Positions 1,827-57,086 of a stretch of 64,000 nt of DNA are shown piece by piece. A program made the position numbers and the translations under genes. Numbering within the stretch: position 1 is the stretch's first letter; every line of letters starts with the position of its first letter. The notes beneath the pieces were generated by a model. That model saw nothing but the letters and a program-made list of their open reading frames with translations, searched no databases and had not been told where the DNA came from. The stretch is from Oidiodendron maius Zn. Its lineage: Eukaryota > Ascomycota > Leotiomycetes > Myxotrichaceae. The stretch is taken from NCBI GenBank assembly GCA_000827325.1, contig KN832871.1:2108001-2172000 (forward strand), in the 5' to 3' direction.

Positions 1827-4800
1827 ATGCCCGCAGACAGCAGCGATGTCGCGGCCGCGGCCAAAGAACGTATGGCCACGGCTTCCACAGGAACGGCCCC
1901 TAAATCTCCAGCACCACTCGTAACCGTGTCGCAAACGAACGGAACGAGCAAGAGGATTAGCTTGCACGCGTCACATTCCCATTCTGGCGACTCCGCCATT
2001 GCCCTCGACGAGACTGACGACTCTCAATCAGACCAAGAGAAGCAACGGGGAGCTTGCTTTTCTATGGAGGACAGGTCGCATGAGATCCCGACCTCAGGCA
2101 GTACCGAGCGCATTGCCCGGGGGCCGCAATCGCCGGCCAATGCCAAGATTAAAACGTACAGTGACGACCCAGATACCACGAAGTTTCCTCGGATCTCGAG
2201 GCCGGTAGAACTCCTCAGGAACGAATACGATGTTATCGTCATCGGCTCGGGATATGGAGGTGCGGTGGCAGCCAGTCGAATGGCTCGAGCTGGCCAGTCA
2301 GTCTGCCTGCTTGAGCGCGGCAAAGAGAAATGGCCTGGAGAGTACCCCAGTGGCTTCGTGGATGCCATGAAGCAACTGCACGTCTCTGGGGACTTTGCGC
2401 CAGGCTGTTTGAAAGGCTCTCTCGTTGAGGCCGGCGACCCTACCGGTCTCTATCATCTCATCATGGGTAAGGGGCAGAATGCCTTTGTTGGAAATGGACT
2501 TGGCGGCACTAGTCTCCTCAATGCTAATATATTTTTGGAGGCCGATGAAGGCACCATGGGGTTGGAGAGCTGGCCACAGGACCTTCAGAGGCCAGGGGCT
2601 TTGAAGCCGTATTACGATCGTGCGGCATCTGTTCTCCAACCCAAACCATACCCCGAGGACTGGCCTGAGTTACCCAAGCTGACCTTGCTGGAGAAGCAGC
2701 AGAAGGCATTGGGAATGGGTAGATTCTATCGCCCTCCGCAGACTACCCGATTCCAAGGCGGTCCGAACAGCACGGGCGTGGAAATGTATCCCTCCGCGCT
2801 GACCGCCATGGATAGCACCGGAGTGAATGACGGAAGCAAATCAAGCACGCTTGTCAACTACCTTGCTGATGCATGGAATTGGGGTGCAGAGATGTTCTGT
2901 GAGTGTGAAGTAAGGTACATCAAGAAGAACCCCGACCCGGAACAAGGCTATTTGGTATTCTTCGCATGGCACGGGAGCAAGAGAGGGGCATTCAAAGAGT
3001 ATATCTATGAAGATCTCATGTGGGTGCGTGCTAAGAAATGCGTGTTTCTCGGCGCTGGGAGCATCGGGACGACCGAGATTCTTCTTCGAAGCAAGAAGCT
3101 GGGCCTGTCGATGAGCGATAAGGTGGGCCTTAATATGAGCGGTAATGGCGACATGCTTGCCTTTGGCTATAATACGAACGACGAGGTAAACGCCATCGGC
3201 CGACAGCATCCTTCTCCATACAAGCCTATTGGTCCAACAATTTCAGGCATTATCGATTGTCGTGAAGGTCATGATAACCCCCTCGATGGGTTTGTCATTG
3301 AAGAAGGCGCTGTCCCAAAGGCTTTAGCACCCCTTTTCCAGACCATGCTTGAAACGATGCCCGGAAAACAATCGCCACATCTCGGTTTCATGTCAAGGAT
3401 CCACCACGCTCTTGCATCTATGGGAAGTCGCGTATTGGGGCCGTACTATTCGAAGGGCAGTATCGAGAAGACTCAGGTCTATTTAGTTATGAGCCATGAT
3501 TCAAATCAAGCGATAATGTCACTCCACAGGGACCAGCCAGTCCTCGAGTTTATGGGCGTTGGGCGCAGTGAGCATGTTACCTATCTGAATGAACAACTGA
3601 AGAAGGCAACGGAAGCTGTTGGTGGGACCTTTATCAACAGTCCGTTCTACGCGGTCCTTGGAAAGCAAGAGATAACGGTACACCCAATTGGTGGAGCATG
3701 TATGAGTAACGATGGAACGGGAGAAGGGGGGGTTACAAGTCAATATGGAGAAGTTTTCTCTGGTCCTGGTAAAGAGACTCACGGTGGTCTCTTCGTCACT
3801 GATGGAGCTATCATCCCTACGGCGCTCGGTGTTAATCCACTTGCAACAATAACCGCACTTGCTGAGCGCAGTGTCGAATATGCAGCAGCCACGTGCGTTC
3901 GCGCAAATATCAATCTAAGGCAACAGAACGCAGTTTTGAACCTGCTTGGAAAGCCTGGCCAGTTTGATGATGGTTTCACGCTCATGCACCGAGTCAATAC
4001 AATTGGCATTGAAGCTGCCACTGAGGAGGTCGAAAGTACAGAAGCTGCGGAAGCGAGCGGAATTGGTTTCTCAGAGGTTATGACTGGATACATTCATTGT
4101 GGTGACGGAATTGAAGGAGATCAGATCGAGGATTTTGAGACGGCTGCAAATACCGCCCAGGGCCTTTGCGAACAAGCGAGGTTCTTCTTGAGTGTCAAGG
4201 CATGGGATACAATGTTAAGTAAGTTATGTTTCCATTATTCCTCACACTTTCCGTCGCATTTCACAGTCAGTCCTTTTTGTACCTCTACGCCGAATAAGTT
4301 GCTAACCTTTATAGCCGTGAACCGTGCCGACCACTCCGCGATGCTTACAGGCACATTCACCTGCCCTGGAGTGCCGGGCAGCCCTTTTATGGTCCAGCGA
4401 GGCTGCTTCCACTTGTTCACTAGGGATCTGCAGGCTTCGGGCACACACAACCTTACATACGATTTCAATATGACTTCTGTAGATGGCAGGCAGTATCACT
4501 TTCATGGATACAAAGTAATTGACTCGTCATCTTCTCTTGCACCGTTCCGCTTCTGGTCCCAGACTTCGACTCTCTATGTCACCATCTCGGAGGATACGAA
4601 GGATGGCCGTATTGTTGGACGCGGAACTATGCATATTAAGCCGATTGACTTCTTGTCTGAGATGCGTACTCTTAAATCGTATGGCAAGGATCTGTTCTCC
4701 AGGCTTTATTCCGCAGGCACATTCTTGACATATTTCATCAAGCAGTCTGCGAGCGCACTTCTTAAGCCCTTTACTGCGCAGCAGTATCCAGCAATGACAT

Positions 4801-18099: not shown

Positions 18100-19644
18100 T
18101 CAGTGCAGTCCTTCTCCCGGCATCACAGCGTCTCGGCCAGTAGTCTTTGCAGTGGAAGGCTCTACGTTATCCCAGCTAAGATATGTATGGTCGCCAAGCT
18201 TACGTGGCTTGATGAGGTGAGTGACGGTGAATACAACGCCAAGGATAACGCAGATTCCTGCAACGACGATGTAGGCAATTCCAAGGAAGGGGTTCTTTCC
18301 TCCCACGACGGTGCGCGTGCTGATTAGGATAGCTTTTGTTCCGCCATACTCCGTGACATTGAAATCTTGATTGCATTATGTTAGGAACAAGGCTAGACTA
18401 CATGCGGGAACAGAAGGGACAGATGAAGACTTACGATGCACGATATCAAGCGTGTAAGTGCCAGCCAACATTGGCGCAGTATCATTTCTCTGTACCAATT
18501 TGCTAAATGTCGGTAGACCTGCTAATCTCATCCAGACTTGGAACGCCTCATCGTTAACCAGGTCGGGGTGGTAATCATCGCTATAATTGTTCGGATATCT
18601 CAAGACCCAATTTGGGGGCACGGCGACCTCTGACCAGTTATAGGATGACGGGCCGTACAGCTTCTTGTCGGTGCTCCATGAGATATCTGTGTTGTTCTGC
18701 ATGTAATAAGTCTGGTTGTTGACATGGTCGCCTGGCACATTCAACAGCACTGGTGAAGAGAACGTGTCATTAAAGACTGAATTGGCTGCCAATCCGCATG
18801 GGTAGTATGGCTTGGTAACACCCCCATCGACAATAGTAGTTAATGGAGTGCAGTCGCTACCATGGATTGTGCTTGCGGAGACTGCTTGCCCTAAGAGTTG
18901 ATCGGTGTTGAAAGACTTGGCATATCTTCGATGGTTTTGGTAGAAGTTTGTCAGGCGGTAATAGAACAGTACCGGGGGATTCATTTCATTGGGAATCGTG
19001 AAGTCGATGGTGCATAGTGTGGCGGGAACGGTGGCCTGGAGAACAGAGCCGTTGTAATATGTGGCGTTGAAAGGCCTCTTGGTCCACGACGGCTGCGCTT
19101 GGTTCGCAGTATTACTTGCATTCTTCTTAAAGTGCATGGTGACGAGGTCTGGGGACATAGCTTCCGTAGCTGGGAAGTCCGGCGCATCCAAGTAGCATCT
19201 CGAATAGTCTATTATGATCTCTTGTACCTGCGGCACGTTGCGGTTAGTCCGGCTGATGCGTCCTTAGTAAAGGGGAGATGTTCAGTCACTGACCTGTGCA
19301 CTGGCGTACAACAGGAGTCCGCCAATAGGCGCAAATATCACACTGATGGCAAAGAATAGCGGAAGGACAGTCTTCGGAGTGAGGATAGGTCTGTAGTGTC
19401 CTGTCAGCTGCGCCGTATGGAGATTCAGACATCAGGACTTACTGCCACGCCTTCAATCGCTGTTGACGGAATGCAGTATCTGAGGGAGGGCGCCATAGTC
19501 AGCTTCGCATCTTCTCCTCCGATTCTTCGATCACAGAGGAATCTCACTAGCTGGTCTTCTGCTCTTCTCCTTCTTGCCACCCTGCTGCGCCGACTCCTCC
19601 GAGATGGAGTCATCTTGATTCCGCGACGGTTCTCGCTCTGCCAT
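18100..19644 (-). CDS. CDC50: Cdc50/Lem3 family subunit of P4-ATPase lipid flippases
   Basis: Five exons on the minus strand (19644-19548, 19479-19443, 19390-19294, 19227-18435, 18365-18100) give 429 residues. Cdc50 proteins are obligate beta-subunits that carry P4-ATPases out of the ER and help move phospholipids to the cytosolic leaflet. The chain has a short polar N-terminus, TNTAF-like conserved block after exon 1 (NTAFRQQRLKAWQP), membrane helix 1 at about 53-76, a large lumenal domain with cysteines and many N-glycosylation sequons (for example NNTD, NWSE, NYSD), then NVTEYGGTK and helix 2 at about 367-391, and a cytosolic tail with THLIKPRKLGDHTYLSW. Exon 2 is only 37 nt. The last intron junction (DIVH joined to HFNVTEY) is the least certain one. 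Confidence 0.93.
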
Positions 19645-20151: not shown

Positions 20152-23074
20152 TCATTCGTCTTTGAACAGATAGGCACCCCCGGGCCTCATCGCCTCATTA
20201 TATCTTTGGGCAACCACATCGCGCTCAACTTTCTCTAACTTCTGACGGTCTTCTCTCTCCTCCTGAGTTGAGGGGAAATCAATCCTCCAAAAGCCGGGTG
20301 GACTCCGTCTCCTTTCGTATGCATGTCGGTGCTTGCCGTGCTTATTTGCTAGCTCTCGTGTCTTGGCTTGGAGCAGAGCCTCATTTTTCTCAGCCCTCGT
20401 CATGTTGCGAATCTTGTTGGCATTGTCGCCAAGGAACTCCTTGAGAAGGCTTGTTTCAGCTTCTTCTTGCGAGGCTGTGACAGGCTTATTGGGATCGCGG
20501 GCCGCCGTGGCCAGCGCTCGAAAGATGTTGCCGCAACATTCGGGTTTCGTACAACCTGGAAGGCATCGGCGTGCTGCTTGCTTGCGGACTACATCTGTAA
20601 AGGCATAATCATAACCATTGTTGTATTCTGGGTTAATCTTGAAATCATGTACGCCGAGCATACCTAACGGCCGATAACGGAGTGATTCATTCTTGGGTTC
20701 GTCCTTGACACTAGAACCTGAAGCTCGCAAATGAGAGCTCCTTTTCGTCGTGCTAACGGACTGTCCAGAGTTTGGGCTATGATTACATACAGATTTGGGT
20801 AATTGAGGTGTGACCGCCCCCGCTAGTAGACCTCCATGAGCTGGTGTGTGCAATTCGGCAGATGTCATTGAAAGGTTGGCCGGAATAATTGGATCGCGGT
20901 TGCCATTGAGACAATTTGAGTCATCTCTCGAATTCGGTCGTTCGGCGTTAGAACGATCTTTCGGTGCCGTCTCAAGTCTGCGCGAGGCTATTCTATCACT
21001 GGGAGATAATGGAGGCGATGAATAAGAGGCGAGCGACAGACTTCCAGCCGTCATAGGAGGACCCTGTGCAGAGGATGTAGCATTCAGAACTGTCGGCAGT
21101 TTAGTGTCATACTGGAGGCCATTGGGTGGAGCATAAGCGGCTATTCTTATCGCTTTAGGGTTGGAAGGCATCGGATTTTCGAGCAGCTTCATCAATCGTC
21201 CGTCCGAGTCTGACCACTCGCTCAGGCTGGAGAAGCCCTCTATGGCTCCTTGTTTCTCGCCATCTTCAACCAATTCTTGTATAGCTAAATCATGGGTGAC
21301 TCGCCGCCGTTTTGTTGCACGATGACTCGACTTCCTTGGCATGAACTCATTTGCAGAGTTTGACGATTGAGGAGTTGAGCCGGCCTGGAATACTGGATCA
21401 ATCATAGGTGGCCTTTGAGATATGTGTGCATATTTTAGAATACTGCTCGGAGCTCTAGCACTCACAGCTTCCTGTTGAATATTTCGTGAAGGCCGTGACC
21501 CAGATCGTGGCCCATGTGGCCCCGATCCAGCAAGATCATGTATCAGTGCGCGTTGCTTTCTAGGAGTCATTTGTTTGTAGCCTATATCATCCAGATCTAC
21601 ACTTTCTTGTTCTTCCAGCTCATGCAAAGCAGCGAGGCCGATAGGACTACTTGAGATTGTTTCGACTTTTATCTTAGAAGTAACTCTAGGGCTTTGATGA
21701 GACTTCCTCTTTCTAACACTGCGTTCCTGTACAATCACCGGAATGTCCTGTAGAGATTGGATACTCTCCTGTGATTCTGTTTTGATCGTAGTGCCATGGC
21801 CGTTAAGGTTAGAAGGAGAATTCAGACACGGATCATCCGTAGAGCTGGAGTGGTATGGCTCGGTTATCACATATGGGGCGTCCTCAGCTGCATGATTCCC
21901 AGCTCTCTTGACGTCTGAGAGTACTGGGAGTTCGTTGAATTCAGATTCCCAATTCTGGTCCGGTCGTGGAGAATAATTATTTGCCTTGGCCCGACCACCA
22001 AGCTTTAATTCTGCACCTGGTTGCTTCTCTGGATCTAGTTGCTTCTCATTGGAAGTAGAGAGTTTGGGGTTGTTGCTGGTTGGAAATTCGATTTGAGGTG
22101 AAAATGTGGCGATATTATTCACGGCTGATGGCTCCAAGCTTGTTACAGCTTGGCGCTCATGAGCGGTACTGACCGGAGCAGGCTCGAAAAGTCTTGTATC
22201 GTCTTCAAAACTCCCTAGATTATCTTCCTTCCGGGCCACTTGAGCTACCTCAACAGCATTCGATTGTTTCAAGGACTGAATTTCTTCCTCCAAACTCCGA
22301 GTCTTGTCTTCTAATTGTCGTATCTTATCACGCTTCTGATCCAGCTTTTTCTCAAGCCCTTCACAAAACAGATTATACCGCTTGGTTTTATCCTTCTCCG
22401 CTCGCAGTGACTTCTCGAGCAGCGTTCTAGATGCCTTTATGTCGGTCCAGTTCTGAAACACCTGGTTATATTTTGTAACTAAAGAATTATACCTTTCTAA
22501 TGTGCTAAAATTCGAATCGCTCTTTTCAACGCGACCATACGATAAGGATAAGTTGGTAGAGATTGCGGCTAACACTGAATCACCCGGTTTCGCATTCCTA
22601 TGTACTCCTCGACCGGCAATTTCAATATCTTGCGAGTCCTGGACAGGTTGGATTTCCGTGCTTAAGAGTTGATGCTGTTCCTCGGATTGTCCAGCTTGTG
22701 CTTGAACGGCAGCACTCTTGTATGGCTTCAACTCTTCGGTAAGCCGAGCATTCTCTTTGTTCAGTCGTTCAATCTCCGCCGTCTTTTCTTGCACCAGTCG
22801 AGCGTCACTTTGTGCTTCCTCTTGTTCGCGACTTAGACCGATAAAGTCATTTTCCAGCTTTCCTACTATAGTATTCGTTTTTTGGAGTTTTCGAAACTCG
22901 TCTCGAGAGACCAATATGCTGTTCTCGTCGTGAAGTTCTGCACAGTTCTTTGATCAGTGAGAGCTTCAGTTTCCAAATCTGAGGCATACCATTCTCCACA
23001 TTCGCTCGAACTTTATCGCAGAGTTTCGCAAGATCTTCTAGCAGCTCTCTCCTACCACTCTGCCAACTGTTCAT
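20152..23074 (-). CDS. Sae2/CtIP/Ctp1-type DNA double-strand break resection factor
   Basis: Two exons (23074-22990, 22937-20152) give 956 residues. Sae2/CtIP activates the Mre11-Rad50-Nbs1 nuclease so that blocked DNA ends are clipped before homologous recombination. The C-terminal 130 residues carry the family signature: CTKPECCGNIF, then a KHRHAYERRR stretch (RHR-type DNA-contact region) and SPPGFWRIDFPSTQE. The N-terminal 270 residues are predicted coiled coil, rich in heptads (LENDFIGLSREQEEAQ and QLEDKTRSLEEEIQSL), as expected for the oligomerisation domain. The middle is disordered, rich in Ser, Pro and Lys, with several SQ/TQ and SP/TP sites typical of kinase control. It is long compared with yeast Sae2 (345 residues) but not odd for Pezizomycotina. 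The acceptor GTGCAG joins VEN to ELHDENS. Confidence 0.9.
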
Positions 23075-23630
23075 TGTTATGGCCTTTGGTACACGGTTGC
23101 TCCATCACTCTTGATATTGAGGGGCTAGCCATTGTCGCGTGTACAATTTCGTCAAGACGCGTAAGTCAGGTGACCAAAATTAAAGTTCGTTGATTACCTA
23201 ATCGGGAAATAATCTCCTCACGAAATCGGAAATCCGGCCGCATTACAAAAATGTAGTCACATCTAATAAACTGTATAATAGTGACGAAATAGACAAATTA
23301 AGATTTTGGAAATTGGCAAGAGATAATATTGGCAACGTCTGTTGTTGGGAGCCATGGAGATGCAATGTATAGTTATCCAGTATGCCGGATTTGTAATCTA
23401 CTGGGACGAGTCTGGTGGGCAGAGCAAGAGTTGGTAGAAATATATACTATTCTTGCAAATTACTGTACTCGGCTCTATGCAACTTAGAGCTGACTTCAAA
23501 AAGCGATACCAAACGTAAGAGCGCGGTCTCTTGCTACTTAAGTCAGAGCCTAAACTACTCAAAGCGAGATTCAAAGTAAAGAAGGTTAGTATAATACGCA
23601 TATAAGAAAATAAGCCATTTTCTGGGCAGC
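23075..23630. other. Intergenic between the Sae2-like gene and tRNA-Ala
   Basis: AT-rich DNA without a supported gene. The left end is the promoter of the Sae2-like gene. The last 50 bases form the 5' flank of the tRNA gene. Confidence 0.5.
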
Positions 23631-23650
23631 GGGCGCTTGGTCTAGGGGTA

Positions 23651-23702
23651 GTAAGTTATTCTATATCGCACAATTCCTCACACTCTCTAACAGTAAACTC
23701 AG
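23651..23702 (+). other. GT-AG intron-like insertion in the tRNA D-loop
   Basis: The 52-nt insertion begins GTAAGT, contains TCTAAC at 23686-23691 (branch A about 12 nt before the end) and ends CTCAG. These are the donor, branch and acceptor signals used by the protein-coding introns of this window. The join must lie exactly here, because the conserved A21 and the following TGAT stem half need it. The ends do not look like a direct repeat. Whether it is removed by the spliceosome, by tRNA endonuclease or not at all cannot be told from sequence. Confidence 0.75.
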
Positions 23703-23718
23703 TGATTTTCGTTTCGCA

Positions 23719-23738
23719 TGTCCCTTCTTGGGCTTGAT
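23719..23738 (+). other. Canonical tRNA intron at position 37/38
   Basis: This 20-nt segment lies one base 3' of the anticodon, the standard place for eukaryotic nuclear tRNA introns. It contains a small CCC/GGG hairpin (23722-23732). It would be cut by the Sen endonuclease. Confidence 0.8.
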
Positions 23739-23784
23739 TATGAAAGGTCCGGGGTTCAATTCCCCGAGCGTCCAGAACTGTGAC

Positions 23785-23789
23785 TTTTT
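23785..23789 (+). terminator. Pol III terminator (T5) of tRNA-Ala
   Basis: A run of five T on the coding strand starts 11 nt after the tRNA 3' end. Such runs end RNA polymerase III transcription. Its presence supports a working gene rather than a tRNA relic. Confidence 0.8.
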
Positions 23790-24320: not shown

Positions 24321-26588
24321 TCAAGCGGCCCTTCTAGCATTTGTACTCATTAGTGTTATCTTCTTTACCTTCTTCTTCCTCGCACCAACGCCCGGTTTTG
24401 GGTCTTCAGGGCCTTTCAATGAGCTCGCTTGAACTTGGGCAATGAGGTCATTTTCCGCAATCAGATCCTGCTCCCACGTTGACAGCCACCCATCATCGAA
24501 ATTTGCTACAGGTTCATGCCGGTGTGTCTCTGGGGATGCCGGAGGGACAATAGCAGTTCCCCATACCGTTCTTGGACCCGGGGGGCTCGTCGATGGCGAC
24601 GCTAGAGAGGCAAACGAAGACCCTTGCCGTGCAGGCCAAGGCGGCGAGTCATCATCTGGATCCTGTACCTTAGTGGGAAGATGATTTAAAGTTTCGGCGT
24701 GGTAAATATCTTGTATTGACTCCGGTCGCTTTCTCCTGGCATTGGCCCAACGTGCATCGTCTTCCACCTTCTCGGCCCGAAGTCTATCCCTTTCTTCTCG
24801 AGTCTCTTTATCTCTATTTCGCTTTCTACGACGTTCAATGTCTTCATTAAATTGTGCAAGAACTTCTGGGGAGACGATATCCGTCCAGTTGCACTCAAGA
24901 AAGCCGACCTCGCAGCCGTGAGGGAGGTGGGCTAGGTACTTGGCTCGCTTGCGCAAATCATCGTCCATGATATGCCCAGTGGACACACGTTCAACGCGTG
25001 GGAGAAGGGTTGAAGGGAAGGAAGCGAAGTTCCCAAAGGCAGATTTGAGAATTCTAATGTCCAAGGGAGCGAGGTAGTAATGAAGTAATGCTTGATAAAA
25101 GTAGTACGGTGCATCAGGATGGTGTGCTTCATGCATGTGAGGGTGTGTATTCCTCGGCCGTGAATGAGGAATCGTGGGGTCACCATTTGCGTGAACGACA
25201 CTTGGCATCGGCTGTTGCTCCGCTACATGATTGTCTGATTTTGCTTGGATTGAGGAAAGGTCGTCTTCTCTTGACAAGTTCAGGCCAGGTTTAGAGGCAT
25301 GTTGGACGAAGTACATTGCCGGGTCGTCCTCGTTGACGGACTTAAACTGGATTGGTTGCCTTCTTGGTTTCTTTTCGGTCGGTTGTTTTGGTATTGGTGG
25401 ATCGCCGATACCCTTGATTCTTTCCTTTGCTTCCGTGACCGCCTTGATAGCTTTCTTCGTCCATTCCGGGTCCTCTCCAAACATCAACTCGTCTTCATTT
25501 TCTTGGCACTGAAGGCCCTCAATCTCAGCGTCAAACTGCTGCGTCATATACTCTTCGCCGCCTTTCATGATTCGAGCGTAATCTGTGACTTCTGCCGCAA
25601 AATACCAAGGAATATCTTCAGATTTTCCGAGTGCATCAGCTCCATCTCGGGGAAGTGCAAGGGTGCTTCCTGGCTGCCGCATAACTAGCCGCAATACAAC
25701 ATCGTCCCCCTCATGAGGCTGCGGCTCCTCCTGACCAATATACCACCTTACGGGTCGGGTCTCAGAGATGTATATTGAATCCCAACATATTGGGCATTTC
25801 TTCCACCGCGCCTTCTTTTCCGGAATCGGATCCGCATCGTCAGAAGAGTGCATATAGCGAATTAGGCAGGGCAGGCAAAAAATATGGCCGCATTTTGCCA
25901 TTCGTGGAGCAACGGGATGAGAGAGGCAGATGGGACATGCTGCTTCTTGCGAGACAGCGGAGGCAAGAATTTGCAGGACGTCATTCCAGTCCAGATGTTG
26001 GTCCGCATTTACAGCTTGTTGTTTGTAATCACCATGCGGCTTGACAATGAAGCGATAATTTGCATGTATATATCTAAGTCGGTTAGTAGAGTGATTAAAA
26101 AAGGGAGATGACCACGCGTACCTCGCTTTGTCGCTAGAATGGTGACCAGATCCGATTCCATAGATGTTTCCTCTCCTAGTACCTCGCCCAAAGGTATTCC
26201 GATAGTCCTGTGTCGGGGGAGGAAGGTTGAAGTTCATCAAATGAGTAATGGAGGTCTGGCCCCTCCGGCCAGTAGCATTTCGGCTGGCTCCCTAGATTTA
26301 TCAGTGTACGCTTGTAAAATCTTGCAAATCACGTACAGATTCCGCCATGGCATCCTCATCCGCAAGCCTTGGTCGTCTCGAATTCTTGTGCTGCTTCCTA
26401 TAACCCTGGTTGTTTCGAGCTGTTCCGTGAGACGAGCCGGAGTGGCCACCGGAACGTCTCGAGCTTGCTTCGCTTGGAGCTGCTAGCTGCCCTTGATGAT
26501 GTTGTGCCGGTACGTGCGACGAAGAAGGAGATGAGATATTGAGTGCTTTCCCCCCGGATGAAGACGCGTTTGGCAGGGCAGAAGTCAT
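24321..26588 (-). CDS. RING-finger protein of the RNF10/Mag2 family
   Basis: Three exons (26588-26337, 26291-26122, 26073-24321) give 724 residues. RNF10 and yeast Mag2 are RING E3 ubiquitin ligases linked to ribosome quality control; the role here is inferred from family likeness. A Ser/Gly-rich leader with a basic RRPR stretch precedes the conserved HLMNFNLPP block, then a NYRFIV block, and a C3HC4 RING starting at Cys187 (CPICL ... KCGHIFCLPCL ... CPIC). The second half has FYQALLHYYLAPLDIRIL and LAHLPHGCEVGFLECNW, which recur in the family, then a basic coiled segment, and ends with KKVKKITLMST. Intron 2 (48 nt) is stop-free and in frame, so an unspliced form would add 16 residues just ahead of the NYRF block. 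The start is the first ATG of the open frame. Confidence 0.88.
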
Positions 26589-30425: not shown

Positions 30426-32246
30426 ATGTCTGAGCGCTATTCGTTACGGCAGACTCCAAAGTAAATTGCTTTCTTAGTTCTCTCATTAACGCATAGCTAA
30501 ATATCGCGCAGGAAAACGGAGTTCAGTGGCTACGTCGAGACCCCACGCCCTCGTCGAACAAACCGTCGCAAGTCGCAATTCCCCAAAGATGAGGACGACG
30601 ACTCTTCCTCCCAAGCTGACAGCTCCTCGGGGAGAGTTGCGTCGACTCGATCTTCAAAAAGAATTGTCAGTTCGTCAGAACAGCCCGCCACAAATGGATT
30701 TTCCAAAAATGGTTCGATAAAACACGCCTCGAATGGCGCCTCGAATGGCCACGCGAAAAAGGCCAACGGCGCACACAAGAAGGTCATTGATGGCTGGGAA
30801 GTTGGCTCCGACCCCAGGATTGATCGCTCTGGCCATGTCGACTTTGGTGGATCGTATGGGGTCTCTGCTATGATGATTGGGTTTCCGCTGTTGATGTACT
30901 ACATGTGGATTGGAGCCACCTTTTACGATGGCAAATTCCCAACACCAGCAAAGGGGCAGAACCTGATTCAATTCTTCAGGCATCTGGCAGGAATTGTCTC
31001 CGAATTTGCCTTCCCGTCTGTACGTGCCTGGACAATATACTGGGTCTTTTTCATCTTCGAGGGGGCATGCTACTGCTTGCTCCCTGGGGTTGAGGTTTAT
31101 GGCAAGCCTCTGGCGCATGAGGGGGGTAAGCAGCTGAAATACTACTGCTCCGGAGTATGGTCCTTCTACACAACTATAGTTATTGCGGCTGTGCTTCACT
31201 ATACTGGCCTGTTCCCAATCTACACGATCATCGACGAGTTTGGCCCCCTTCTGTCTGTCGCTATCCTATCTGGCTACCTGGTCTCAATTGTTGCATACTT
31301 CTCAGCTCTAGTCCGTGGAGCACAGCATCGTATGACAGGCTACCCCATTTACGACTTCTTTATGGGCGCCGAGCTGAATCCGAGAATGTTTGGTATTCTG
31401 GATTTTAAGATGTTCTTCGAAGTCCGTCTCCCGTGGTTTATTCTTCTCGGAATCTCCTGTGCCACTGCTGCTCGCCAGTATGAGGACTATGGCTATGTCT
31501 CTCCCCAGGTTGCGTTCTTGGTTATGGCCCATTTCTTGTATGCAAATGCCTGCGCCAAAGGCGAAGAGTGCATCACCACAACGTGGTAGGTTTAACCCTT
31601 TGCAACTTTTCAAACACAGCTAAGAAGATCAGGGATATGTATTACGAGAAATGGGGCTTCATGTTGATCTTCTGGAACTTGGCTGGAGTCCCCCTGAGCT
31701 ACTGTCATTGCACTCTTTATCTTGCCAACCACCCCCCGTCTACCTACCGCTGGAATCCGTATCTCATGGCCATGCTCTTCGTTACTTATCTTTTCGTATA
31801 CTGGATTTGGGACACTACGAACTCACAGAAGAACCGCTTCCGTGCACAAGAACGTGGCACATTGCTGGAAAGGAAGACATTCCCTCAGCTTCCCTGGCAA
31901 ACCGTTAAGAACCCCCGCATAATTAAGACAAAGACAGGCGACTCGATTCTGGCTGATGGATGGTACGGCTATGCTCGGAAGATCCACTATACCTGCGACT
32001 TCTTCTTCGCCAATTCTTGGGGCTTCATAACTGGGTTTAATAGTCCCTTCCCTTGGTTTTATCCCTTTTTTTTCACCTGCATGATCATCCACCGTGCGTA
32101 CAGAGACATCCAGCGCTGCAAGCAAAAGTATGGTGAAAGCTGGGAGGAGTATGAAAAGCTGGTACCTTATTTATTCATCCCGGTACGTTCCCCACTATCA
32201 GTTACTCTAAACCTCGCCACTGATGTACTTGAAGTATGTCTTTTAA
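30426..32246 (+). CDS. ERG4: Delta(24(24(1)))-sterol reductase, ERG4 (last step of ergosterol synthesis)
   Basis: Four exons (30426-30460, 30512-31585, 31633-32182, 32235-32246) give 556 residues. Erg4 reduces the C24(28) double bond of ergosta-5,7,22,24(28)-tetraenol to ergosterol with NADPH in the ER membrane. A polar leader of about 120 residues, rich in Ser, Lys and Asn, precedes a polytopic membrane domain. The ERG4/ERG24 signature is clear: [31 protein letters not shown] across intron 2, and [15 protein letters not shown] with FFFANSWG. The C-terminus [22 protein letters not shown] is completed by a 12-nt last exon coding Tyr-Val-Phe and stop, which restores the usual FIPYVF-type ending. 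C14 reductases (ERG24) share the fold, but the [21 protein letters not shown] block fits ERG4 better. Confidence 0.92.
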
Positions 32247-49476: not shown

Positions 49477-50009
49477 TTATGCCGTCTCTCCACTCAAGAT
49501 ATCCGAGTCTCCGGCATCGAGGACAGCCATGGTGGAGCATCGGAAGAGCTTTCCGCATGCGGTTCCAAGTTCAATCTGTTGTTGAGTGAGCAAATGTACC
49601 CTCCAAAGTCATGACGACTTTTTCGCAGGGCAAGATGGCGGCTGTGGCTTATAACAAAGGAAATATAGTTATGCTTACGTTGTTTCCGGCGAAGTGGTGG
49701 ACGTTGGTCTTGGACAGCATGGAGTAGTCTGGTGTAAGTTAGTTCCATCTGCGAATATATGACCGGAGGAAAACATACACTCGAGCTCGCTCTTGCGGAG
49801 AGGTGGGGTGTTGCCGGCGATGATGACCAGCTTGGCCTTCCCAGAACGGAGGGTCTTGAGGGTTGACTTGTAACCGAGAGTGACCTTTCCAGACTTCATC
49901 ACCAGCGCCAGGCGCGAGTTGATGTTGTCAGCTGTAAATAGTCAGTAAGAGTCTAACGCAGAGGAGAGAAAGACGAACCGGTCTTCTTGGTCTTCTTCGT
50001 GGGTGCCAT
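49477..50009 (-). CDS. RPL30: 60S ribosomal protein eL30 (Rpl30)
   Basis: Four exons (50009-49979, 49931-49779, 49728-49679, 49575-49477) give 110 residues, the expected size. eL30 lies at the subunit interface of the 60S; in yeast it represses splicing of its own transcript by binding a kink-turn. The protein reads [20 protein letters not shown], then [40 protein letters not shown] and [23 protein letters not shown], all standard. Intron lengths are 47, 50 and 103 nt. The first intron has a weak donor, GTTCGT, 31 nt into the coding sequence, which might allow regulation as in yeast. Confidence 0.96.
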
Positions 50010-53181: not shown

Positions 53182-56130
53182 TTATTCCAGTTTTCCCACC
53201 ACGATCTTCAAGATCTCTTCTATACCACGGGTTGCATTTTTTGGGTCTTTTGCCACAGTCTGCCACACCTCACCATGCCTCGGTTCACTCAAGATGCATT
53301 TTGCGATGACATCTGCTCGTTTTTCCTTCGAAACCATGTTAGCTTCTAAAAGTCCATATTTACTGGCTGGAAGGACACAACTCACTTCTGTCCCATGCTG
53401 CAATAAGAACTTATAGTACCAAGCCCAGGTGTCTCCAAGATCACTGTCAAGTAGAATAGCCTTTTCAAACCAATTTTGGGCTTTCTCTAATCGGCGCTCT
53501 CCCCAGAATATTCTCGCTATGGTGACAAAAAGAATAGGGTCATTATCAACTTTCTTAATAGCTTCGAGGGCCCGTGGTTTACGCTGTGTCCGGGGTTCAA
53601 GGTGCCAGATTGACTCGCTATATAATAGACCACTTGTCGGGACTTCTTGCAGAGCTTTGGCCATGAGAACCTTTGCTTGACTGATATTGTTTGCTCTTCT
53701 TTCGACCCGAACAGACTCTGTCCATAGCTCGGCAGACTTGGGGACTGCTAAACGCGCTCGGTCAAGGACACTGCGCGCTTTGACAACCATCCCAGCCTTC
53801 TCCTCCAGTCTCGAAAAGAGGAGCCAAAGAGGAATAGACTTAGGGCACGCCTTAGTTCCTGTACTGTACGCTTCTCTGGCCAGCGGCAACTTTCCTTCCC
53901 CTTCATATATTTGACCCTTCATCATCCACAGCTTTGCTGTTCCAGGAAAAAGTTGTAGCGCTTGAGTCACAAGATCAAGCGCAGCATCGACATCACCAAG
54001 TTGGCGCTCGAAAGCAACACTCTTCGTCCATACTCGATCGGTGGGAGCCTCCTGTCGTGCAGTCTTTAGTAATTCTCTCGCCTGCTCGGTTTGTTTATTA
54101 TCTGCTTCCAGTTTTACGGCCGCGAGCCAAATATCCTCGTTATTCGGGTTCTGGTTAAATGCCTTGCCTAAAACTCGTCGTGCATTATCGATCTCCCCTG
54201 CTTGCCACTTCTCCTTTGCTAGCATCATCCACAGTACTTCAGCCTGGGGACAAGCTTCAACAGCCTTCTCCAGGAGCTGCCACAGCGCCTCTCTGGTACC
54301 GTGGTTCTTCTCTAAGTCTGCAGCTGCCAGCCACAACTTTCTGCTGTTAACAAAGACGCGCAGCGCATAAGCATAGATTGCACGGCCAGTTTCGTACTTG
54401 CCTCGTCCGATACTTGACTTGGCATCCTCCATCCACTGGTCCTTTCGATCGTCATCCTCATCCAGTCCCCAACCAAGGGTTTCACGAATGATGTTTACAC
54501 ATGTTAAAATGGCACCTTCATCCTCGCATTTTTCCGCTTCGGCGATCCAGTCCTCACGTTTCAGCATTGCAGATTCTTTAGCAAGTTCCTGAACAGCTCT
54601 TTTCATCACACTGATCTTATTCGCATTTCCCATCTGCTCCTGGAGCCGTGCAGCTGCGATCCAGATCTCATGAGATGTTGGGATTGCTTTCCGGGCCTTA
54701 TTAAGAACCTTTTGTGCGTTCTCAGATGTCTCAAGTCGTGCGAGGGCTAGCCACAGCTCAACTGACAGAGGGATGAGCTCTGTAGATTTTGCGAGGAGAA
54801 GTTTAGCATCTTCGGGATCTTCTTCGAGATTGACCGCCTCCTTCCAGAGTGTAACTGACTGCGGGATATGATCTAAAGCATGTCTTAGGACTCTTTTTTT
54901 TGCTCTTGAGTCCGACTCGAGTTTCATAGCTTCAATCCAGAGGTTGACAGAATTATCATTTGCCTTGATTGCATTGGCTGCAATGATCTTGGCATTATGA
55001 TTATCATTCAGGCGTATGTTTTCTAGCCAAACATCTTCGTTTTTTGGACAGAATTCACAGCCTCTTGCAATGACGTTTCTTGCCGCTACTATCTTCCCTG
55101 CCAGTTCTTCCAACCGCGCAGCAGCAATCCAACCAGGCCCATGCTTAGGATTTGTTCGAATAACAGATTCCAGGAGTACTCGCACTCGCTTTATGTCTCC
55201 AACTTGTTCCTCTCCCTCCCCAGCTTGTGATTTCGCCAGGCTAGTCAGGTATCCTTTAGGGTCGATATTTGTCGCGCTGCCAGCGACAGAATCAGTACCT
55301 TGAGAAGCCTGATCAAGTTTGACCTTGAGGACCTTGTCTCTGGCAGCACCGATCTGAGCGAAATTCGTCATTGTTCCGTCCACCCCATCACCGCCAGAGC
55401 TCGCCATTCCGTCGTCTGTAACTGTAGTACCTAGTTCTGTCGAGTCTCGTGCTCCGGCAATAACACTGTCTGGGACCGCGTAAAATCTCTGCTTCATAGC
55501 CAATTTGGATCTTCGATTCTTTCCAGTCAAATCTCCAACTTCAGGCAGATTCGCCCAGTCTTCATCGCTAACAGTCCCTAGGGCTCTCTTCAAGTCCACG
55601 AATTGTTGTTGGATCTTCGGGTTATTTCGCTCGTACTCTTCTCTTTCGGCCTTTTCGCGTGCTTCCCTGTAGGTAGAACGGTCGGTAATCTGCTCATCTA
55701 TTTGGAGACATGATAAACAATCTTCAGTGAAGTCGTAAGGGGGAACATAGGAAAACGGTGGTGCTAACCTTCTTGCTTTGCGCCTCCTGTCCATTTTCTC
55801 TTCTACCTCTTGATATATCCGGTCGGCTTCATCATCATCTTTATCATATACGCCACCGGCAAACAGCCCCACCTCGTTCTCAGGATCCTGAAATCGCTCA
55901 TCATCGTCATCTTCATCATCTTTCTTTTCAGAGACACCGTAGGCTGTAGGCGCCGCAGATCCTAGTGCAGCTGCGCGTTTTGCGAGAGCCTCCTTGATCT
56001 GGTCCTCACTTGGGCCTTCTCGCGCAGGGCCAAGATCAGACCTTGTCGTAAAGCCAGTGGCCCCACGGCCAAGGCCAGCCACATAATTCTCTGGGGCTTG
56101 TTGATTAAGGAAGTCCCGTCGTCCAGACAT
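53182..56130 (-). CDS. PRP6: Pre-mRNA splicing factor Prp6 (U4/U6.U5 tri-snRNP)
   Basis: Two exons (56130-55769, 55666-53182) give 948 residues, the usual size. Prp6 bridges U5 and U4/U6 in the tri-snRNP and is needed for its assembly. The N-terminal PRP1 domain has GRRDFLNQQAPENYVAGLGRG... and NEVGLFAGGVYDKDDDEADRIY. The rest is an array of HAT/TPR helical repeats (for example HGPGWIAAARLEELAGK, ENIRLNDNHNAKIIAANAIK, VWLENIRL and WLAAADLEKNHG). The intron lies in KARR|EAREKAEREEYER; its donor GTTAGC is weak and its 102 nt hold no stop and keep the frame. Removal is preferred because the joined sequence matches the family, which has no insert here. Confidence 0.94.
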   Translation of the reverse strand: MSGRRDFLNQQAPENYVAGLGRGATGFTTRSDLGPAREGPSEDQIKEALAKRAAALGSAAPTAYGVSEKKDDEDDDDERFQDPENEVGLFAGGVYDKDDDEADRIYQEVEEKMDRRRKARRLAPPFSYVPPYDFTEDCLSCLQIDEQITDRSTYREAREKAEREEYERNNPKIQQQFVDLKRALGTVSDEDWANLPEVGDLTGKNRRSKLAMKQRFYAVPDSVIAGARDSTELGTTVTDDGMASSGGDGVDGTMTNFAQIGAARDKVLKVKLDQASQGTDSVAGSATNIDPKGYLTSLAKSQAGEGEEQVGDIKRVRVLLESVIRTNPKHGPGWIAAARLEELAGKIVAARNVIARGCEFCPKNEDVWLENIRLNDNHNAKIIAANAIKANDNSVNLWIEAMKLESDSRAKKRVLRHALDHIPQSVTLWKEAVNLEEDPEDAKLLLAKSTELIPLSVELWLALARLETSENAQKVLNKARKAIPTSHEIWIAAARLQEQMGNANKISVMKRAVQELAKESAMLKREDWIAEAEKCEDEGAILTCVNIIRETLGWGLDEDDDRKDQWMEDAKSSIGRGKYETGRAIYAYALRVFVNSRKLWLAAADLEKNHGTREALWQLLEKAVEACPQAEVLWMMLAKEKWQAGEIDNARRVLGKAFNQNPNNEDIWLAAVKLEADNKQTEQARELLKTARQEAPTDRVWTKSVAFERQLGDVDAALDLVTQALQLFPGTAKLWMMKGQIYEGEGKLPLAREAYSTGTKACPKSIPLWLLFSRLEEKAGMVVKARSVLDRARLAVPKSAELWTESVRVERRANNISQAKVLMAKALQEVPTSGLLYSESIWHLEPRTQRKPRALEAIKKVDNDPILFVTIARIFWGERRLEKAQNWFEKAILLDSDLGDTWAWYYKFLLQHGTEVSCVLPASKYGLLEANMVSKEKRADVIAKCILSEPRHGEVWQTVAKDPKNATRGIEEILKIVVGKLE

Positions 56131-57086
56131 CGTGGATGCAGGTGGCGTGAGATTTCAAGAGGTATCTGATATCGAGCCTCTGTTGAGGTTGCAAAGAACC
56201 TTGCCTTTTAAGCAGACAAGGCTGAGTCACGTGTATTAGATGAGTCATCATGCAAGGCAATCACCACCACCAGTCAGTTATGGTTTAAAATGATCCAATC
56301 TCACTGTCACTTCACAGAGCTGTGTCATCTTCCAGTTACTCAAGTGATAGTTGCCTATGAAGTTAATCTCCTGCAAGAGGAGCGCATGCCACGCATATCC
56401 TGTAGCAATAAGGGGGAAGCTGACGGGTTTACAGGCAACAAATGCTCTTGATAATGACTTCGGCTTACTGTTCTCAGCCTCCTAGTGAGAAGGCGAAGTA
56501 TCCGAACCCTCGTTATATTTTTGAGGTATTAGACCCCTCTCACTGCGTTCCAAACACCTAGATATCAGATGTTACCTAATCTCAGCGAATAAGATTGTCA
56601 GGAGGAGGCTAGATACATGGCCACGGCAGAGGAGAGGCTCCCATTATTAAAATCGGGTAACTTAACTGGGAACAGGTTAGATAACCAGCTCGTCGACAAG
56701 TTAGCTTCACTGAAGGACGATGAATAAGAGCACGCAAAAGAGTGGGATGAATAGGCAGAGCAAGGGGCAGGCATAGAAGTGGAAGGAAAGGAGAGGTAGG
56801 GCCGATGTAGATTTAGTACGTTAAATAGTTTTCATCCTTTAGATAATTTTTGATCGTAACGTCGTGAAGTGCATTTTGAAGATCGTAAACTCATAAGGCA
56901 TAGCCTCGTAACTAGTCTATCACAAATGTTCACCCTGATTCTATCCAAAGGAGAACCTTTAAACCCGTCGCTCATAACATCTTATCCAACTGATGTGGGA
57001 AAACCCGAAGAGGAACATGGCCGTCGCAAACACAAAACAAAACATATATGAAATGGAGAAAACGTGAAGAAAATGCAGACAGAATA
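56131..57086. other. Intergenic: PRP6 promoter and 3' end of the DUF3824-type gene
   Basis: Apart from the TGAGTCA/CACGTG elements close to PRP6, nothing is recognised. The right part is AT-rich. Confidence 0.5.
56223..56247. promoter_or_regulatory. bZIP (TGAGTCA) pair overlapping a CACGTG box upstream of PRP6
   Basis: TGAGTCA occurs at 56223-56229 and again at 56241-56247. The first overlaps CACGTG at 56228-56233. TGAGTCA is the Gcn4/CpcA-type site and CACGTG the bHLH site. They lie about 93-118 bp upstream of the PRP6 ATG. Function is inferred from position only. Confidence 0.45.

Follow-up and report, generated by a model that had tools for sequence, protein, structure and literature searches.

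A putative spliceosomal intron in the D-loop of a nuclear tRNA-Ala(CGC) gene that also carries a 37/38 intron

The introns of tRNA genes and those of mRNA genes have been treated as belonging to separate worlds, each with its own machines. Bhattacharya and colleagues are said to have described, in 2000, ectopic spliceosomal introns in the rRNA genes of lichen-forming ascomycetes. The available part of a further source likewise records spliceosomal introns in lichen rRNA genes, which are removed from the rRNA, one of them by engineered yeast from Pol I rRNA transcripts (PMC8527467), and that of another records a spliced mRNA-type intron in the U6 RNA of Schizosaccharomyces pombe, thought to stem from reverse splicing (PMC10484740). 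Among tRNA genes, those of the red alga Cyanidioschyzon merolae include some with introns in the D-arm (PMC9602550), the junctions of which are described as bulge-helix-bulge (BHB) motifs (PMC3978253), in both cases going by the accessible portion of the text; similarly, the section available of PMC8450103 gives eukaryotic tRNA genes as limited to one intron.

Here we describe a nuclear tRNA-Ala(CGC) gene which, we consider it highly likely, carries a 52-nt spliceosomal intron in its D-loop, and the transcript of which would likely need two machineries to mature, namely the spliceosome for the D-loop intron and, for the 37/38 intron, the tRNA splicing endonuclease; both removals are inferred from the DNA, without RNA evidence. 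A literature search that covered titles and the starts of abstracts among the matches listed, with subscription journals mostly uncovered, returned no spliceosomal intron in a tRNA gene. As far as could be found, this one would be the first, and it lies beside a Sen-type intron.

Gene body and its two insertions

The window, i.e. the whole 64-kb stretch of DNA that was analysed, encodes SAE2/CtIP, an ArsA-type ATPase (Get3), Cdt1, a PRP1-type splicing factor, CDC50, GH76 and ERG4/ERG24, a gene content from which a filamentous ascomycete is inferred. The best solved matches of the window's Get3 are 8odu, 3iqw and 3ibg, the last two of which we take to be from filamentous ascomycetes. That a PRP1-type pre-mRNA splicing factor is encoded in the same window (53185-56154) is probably a coincidence. 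The tRNA gene lies on the plus strand between minus-strand ORFs for SAE2/CtIP (20152-22953) and a RING protein (24321-26291), and consists of three exons and two insertions (Table 1).

Table 1. Coordinates of the tRNA-Ala(CGC) gene, its insertions and neighbouring signals
Feature	Position	Strand	Details and basis
Two TATAA motifs	23590-23606	+	starts 23590 and 23601; consensus match only
Whole tRNA gene	23631-23774	+	three exons and two insertions
tRNA exon 1, positions 1-21	23631-23650	+	has G3 of G3:U70; box A 23638-23648 intact; read directly, ARAGORN
D-loop spliceosomal-type intron after A21	23651-23702	+	52 nt; read directly, splice model
5' splice site GTAAGT	23651-23656	+
Branch motif CTAAC	23687-23691	+
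3' splice site CAG	23700-23702	+	insert ends CTCAG
tRNA exon 2, positions 22-37	23703-23718	+	anticodon CGC; read directly, ARAGORN
Ordinary tRNA intron at 37/38 (Sen-type position)	23719-23738	+	20 nt; ARAGORN
tRNA exon 3, positions 38-73	23739-23774	+	U70, A73; box B 23753-23763; read directly, ARAGORN
T5 run, candidate Pol III terminator	23785-23789	+	11 nt 3' of tRNA end; sequence match only

With the 52-nt insert taken out, ARAGORN calls a tRNA-Ala(CGC) of 72 nt with the 20-nt intron one base 3' of the anticodon, and the mature form has the CGC anticodon, the G3:U70 pair and A73. All 17 pairs of the acceptor (7), anticodon (5) and T (5) stems form, two of them as G-T. The D-stem is irregular at G10.T25 (a wobble) and at T13.T22 (a mismatch), in D-region letters that a human tRNA-Pro has as well. 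An earlier note on this DNA had proposed a tRNA-Ala(CGC) with a G3:T70 pair and A73, interrupted by a normal 37/38 intron, and the ARAGORN call agrees on each of these points; its wording of a perfect 72-nt tRNA-Ala holds for the length and the alanine identity, "perfect" being a slight overstatement given the two D-stem irregularities and the folding results. Minimum-energy folding did not recover the cloverleaf from the mature, the 92-nt or the 144-nt form: the mature letters take another fold at -27.5 kcal/mol, the cloverleaf coming to -22.0 kcal/mol, and the 144-nt form does not exceed its shuffles in stability (z -1.14). Hence, it is the tRNA pattern, and not folding energy, that supports the cloverleaf. 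Judged by its letters, the gene has what a functional tRNA-Ala gene is expected to have in its cloverleaf, CGC anticodon, G3:U70 and A73; expression and aminoacylation are inferred. Assignment through Rfam was set aside, as no family reached its gathering score in the window and a lax threshold gave only T-arm fragments (mascRNA, tmRNA).

A crude cloverleaf score was computed for candidate placements of the insert; it points to 48-53 nt within the D-region and leaves the ends unfixed: among the best 25 rows, seven other end pairs score 54-56 vs 52 for 23651-23702, and at least 11 more rows tie with the latter at 52. Cloverleaf rules alone permit other ends within a few nucleotides. Real tRNAs settle the ends better than this score: taking out exactly 23651-23702 renders positions 8-26 identical at 18/18 to human tRNA-Pro(TGG), as given in the accessible portion of PMC12217144, and the D-region identical at 17/18 to a tRNA-Pro on another contig (L001). 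The same removal aligns best of six readings to these two real D-regions, the five others being worse.

The L001 gene was the single uninterrupted relative recovered by a DNA pattern scan of genome_contigs; in viral_contigs neither uninterrupted relatives nor the same insert gave a match, and these collections hold almost no fungi. The T-arm pattern matched two viral contigs, one with a different, uninterrupted tRNA (L002) and the other phage-like by its ORFs (L003). At 4242-4313, L001 has a eukaryote-like tRNA-Pro(TGG), and the contig (JARDZP010000080.1), filed under a Haloplasmataceae bacterium MAG, has ORFs that read yeast-like; it is probably yeast contamination. Over the whole mature body, 52/72 positions are identical to human tRNA-Pro and 50/72 to the L001 tRNA-Pro, with no tRNA-Ala as comparator. 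To judge from this resemblance, the tRNA-Ala(CGC) may have switched identity from a tRNA-Pro-like body, or fungal tRNA-Ala may share such a body.

On the raw window ARAGORN in default mode reports no tRNA, and with introns allowed it misnames the gene as a tRNA-Ser(TGA); when the intron is held to 37/38 the unspliced DNA is called as tRNA-Ala(CGC). Both calls come with one 68-nt intron and have imperfect stems. Such calls would allow that there is no D-loop intron at all, merely one 68-nt intron at 37/38 along with a different anticodon arm, an alternative that in its alanine form, with one anticodon-stem base bulged out, is among the rows that tie with the two-intron reading at 52, and that draws on the presence of TCGCA in both the insert and the true anticodon loop. 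However, the raw-DNA calls carry little weight, because shuffled inserts still yield full-stretch calls in 235 of 300 cases with the intron fixed at 37/38 and in 277 of 300 with it free. We rejected the single 68-nt intron for this reason, for its imperfect stems (its anticodon stem must carry a bulge or a mismatch, in addition to a D-stem mismatch) and for its D-region alignment to real tRNA-Pro, the worst of the six, and regard it as very unlikely. The best reading that leaves no base out of the D-region, with a 70-nt intron, scores only 44 in the crude cloverleaf, and the GT..CTAAC..AG match would go unexplained.

The intron stretch 23656-23671, TTCTATATCGCA, is similar to the true anticodon arm, TTCGTTTCGCA, and it is this stretch that lets ARAGORN build the false tRNA-Ala(CGC). 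The likeness of TTCTATATCGCA to TTCGTTTCGCA is probably due to chance, since full-length calls, with assorted anticodons, arise from shuffled inserts as well.

Splice signals of the D-loop insert

A 52-nt insert after A21 that opens with GTAAGT, contains a branch motif and closes with CTCAG was what the earlier note had described, and the letters, read directly, agree. Its wider reading, an mRNA-type intron within a tRNA, is upheld for the identity of the tRNA, for both insertions and for the splice signals, with splicing itself an inference. The GTAAGT hexamer also opens four of 14 introns of the window (5480, 10971 and, on the minus strand, 62089 and 18434), as expected of a U2-type donor; CTAAC ends 11 nt before the last base of the insert, inside the 7-21 nt of the 14 introns, as expected of a branch site; and the length of 52 nt, with AG as the 3' splice site, falls within their range of 44-69 nt.

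For scoring, two models were derived from introns in protein genes of the window. A strict automatic pass on codon scores gave 3 introns and a looser pass 146 candidate rows; the 16-intron model comprises 14 introns chosen by reading the joined proteins and two added by eye (the second CDC50 junction at 19228-19293 and Erg24 at 31586-31632). The 11-intron model is the same set minus the hydrolase (5480), FRE (10971), Erg24 N-terminal (30461), coiled-coil (51517) and 62039 introns, and a Pfam match spans the joined exons for 9 of its 11 members, those of Spt16 and GH17 being without one.

In the 16-intron model the insert scores 22.6 vs 15.2-22.2 for the training introns and ranks first among the 127,896 52-mers of the window on both strands. 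Among the GT..AG stretches of 44-70 nt in the window none other equals it, nor does anything in five dinucleotide shuffles of the window reach its score. In the 11-intron model it scores 20.45 vs leave-one-out values of 10.4-19.35, above all 11 native introns, and comes second of the 127,896 52-mers on both strands and fourth of 12,384 GT..AG stretches of 44-70 nt. The one higher 52-mer, at 20.7, is 19391-19442 on the minus strand (GTAAGT...CTGAC...ACAG), which joins CDC50 exon stretches in frame and which we read as a putative CDC50 intron; the three higher stretches are that of CDC50, the ubiquitin-protease intron 28391 (part of the training set; 20.6 if kept in the model) and a minus-strand stretch at 49778. 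When 10 pairs of insert ends are compared in the 11-intron model, only 23651-23702 is high (20.5), the next reaching 11.8. The splice signals of the insert stand at the top of the range of the window's own introns.

The stretch at 49729-49778 on the minus strand is in itself a strong intron-like sequence of 50 nt (GTATGT...CTAAC...CCAG) and belongs to an unidentified gene.

The insert was also compared with the remainder of the 64-kb window for near-identical copies of the introner type: no second copy was found, the longest shared word being 13 nt, and the notion that the insert is a copy of another intron of the window was rejected on this ground.

Nuclear tRNA genes of C. merolae with D-arm introns (known here from partial texts of PMC9602550 and PMC3978253) offer a precedent for taking the D-loop insert as an unusually placed tRNA intron of the BHB type, on which a Sen-like endonuclease would act. 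A complete bulge-helix-bulge, with four central and three outer pairs and 3-nt bulges, was found in none of 13 registers, the best central helix reaching 3 of 4 pairs in two of them, and a BHB intron at the D-loop was rejected accordingly. It would, moreover, leave the donor, branch and acceptor signals unexplained, and we give it only marginal credence.

Transcription signals and the state of the locus

Box A lies entirely 5' of the insert and box B 3' of it. The second TATAA starts 30 bp upstream of tRNA position 1 and, as a consensus match, is plausible as an upstream Pol III element, its function being inferred. Together with the downstream T-run, the two boxes give the locus the matches expected of a functional tRNA gene. 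The locus might instead belong to an overlapping Pol II non-coding transcript, of which the insert would be an intron and the tRNA-like exons merely a part; the upstream TATA-like motifs could serve Pol II. However, removal of the intron restores an exact tRNA D-region, for which such an RNA would have no need, and a T5 run follows just 3' of the tRNA; of all the alternatives this is the one to which we attach the least belief.

The earlier note had itself allowed for an inert insertion in a silent copy. On this account the locus holds an intron-like insertion or a recently landed intron, and an uninterrupted tRNA-Ala(CGC) elsewhere does the work; the lack of expression data, and of a whole genome that might reveal a second copy, leaves room for this, and the insert enlarges the start-to-start spacing of box A and box B to 115 bp instead of 43. 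In opposition to this, the 72-nt body is without decay, every pair in the acceptor (7), anticodon (5) and T (5) stems being formed; box A, box B and T5 are all in place, as is the TATA-like site at -30; and donor, branch and acceptor signals of this strength at the exact ends are not expected of an inert insertion (0/200,000 random 52-mers of the insert's composition reach its score in the 16-intron model). The silent copy is thereby weakened by the undamaged body, the boxes, the TATA-like site and the T5 run, and is not excluded; we hold it to be unlikely. For their part, the intact body and the Pol III-type signals support expression and do not prove it. Exon 2 contains TTTT (23706-23709), at which Pol III could sometimes stop prematurely, at the cost of some transcripts, and a very short exon 1 on a Pol III transcript without a cap may, by inference, weaken recruitment of the spliceosome. 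All of the evidence comes from a single DNA sequence, with neither RNA reads nor a second copy nor a related species to set beside it.

Proposed maturation and comparison with known systems

Spliceosomal removal of the D-loop intron is the reading that calls for the fewest coincidences, and we adopt it as the best explanation. Pol III is predicted to transcribe the gene from its intact internal boxes; the spliceosome would then recognise GTAAGT, CTAAC and CAG and join A21 to position 22, in the manner known from the mRNA-type intron of S. pombe U6, and the 20-nt intron at 37/38 would be excised by the Sen endonuclease, with tRNA ligase, to give a standard 72-nt tRNA-Ala. The order of these steps is likewise inferred. 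As to origin, an excised mRNA intron may have entered the tRNA by reverse splicing, the product then being reverse-transcribed. This origin is proposed because the ends of the insert are exact, with no target-site duplication seen by eye at its edges; the absence of such a duplication and a longest shared word of 13 nt fit reverse splicing from a distant intron, and are no proof of it.

If this reading is true, the spliceosome can process a tRNA precursor, and the supply of tRNA-Ala(CGC) would depend on spliceosome activity. The short list of non-Pol II RNAs with spliceosomal introns, i.e. U6 and rRNA, would grow to include tRNA, and the locus would offer a test case for the gain of introns by an abundant structured RNA. 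Since ARAGORN misses or misnames the locus, such genes may be systematically misannotated and more of them may be hidden in fungal genomes.

Set against the ordinary 37/38 introns of eukaryotic tRNA genes, the 20-nt intron is of the same kind by position, whereas the 52-nt intron differs in being the second in its gene, in lying elsewhere and in having other signals. The multi-intron tRNA genes of C. merolae are alike, as far as the partial texts go, in being nuclear and in combining a D-arm intron with one at 37/38; their junctions, on the same texts, form a BHB, whereas the present insert has no complete BHB and has spliceosomal ends. The rRNA genes of lichen-forming ascomycetes resemble this tRNA gene, on the reading adopted here, in that ectopic spliceosomal introns interrupt a structural RNA from a polymerase other than Pol II (PMC8527467, in the part available), the difference being that between a Pol I rRNA and a Pol III tRNA. 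S. pombe U6 provides an mRNA-type intron within a structured fungal Pol III RNA, as the gene described here probably does (PMC10484740, again from an incomplete text). U6, however, sits in the active site of the spliceosome, where self-insertion is easy to imagine, whereas a tRNA does not, and the tRNA-Ala(CGC) is set apart from U6 by bearing a Sen-type intron in the same RNA.
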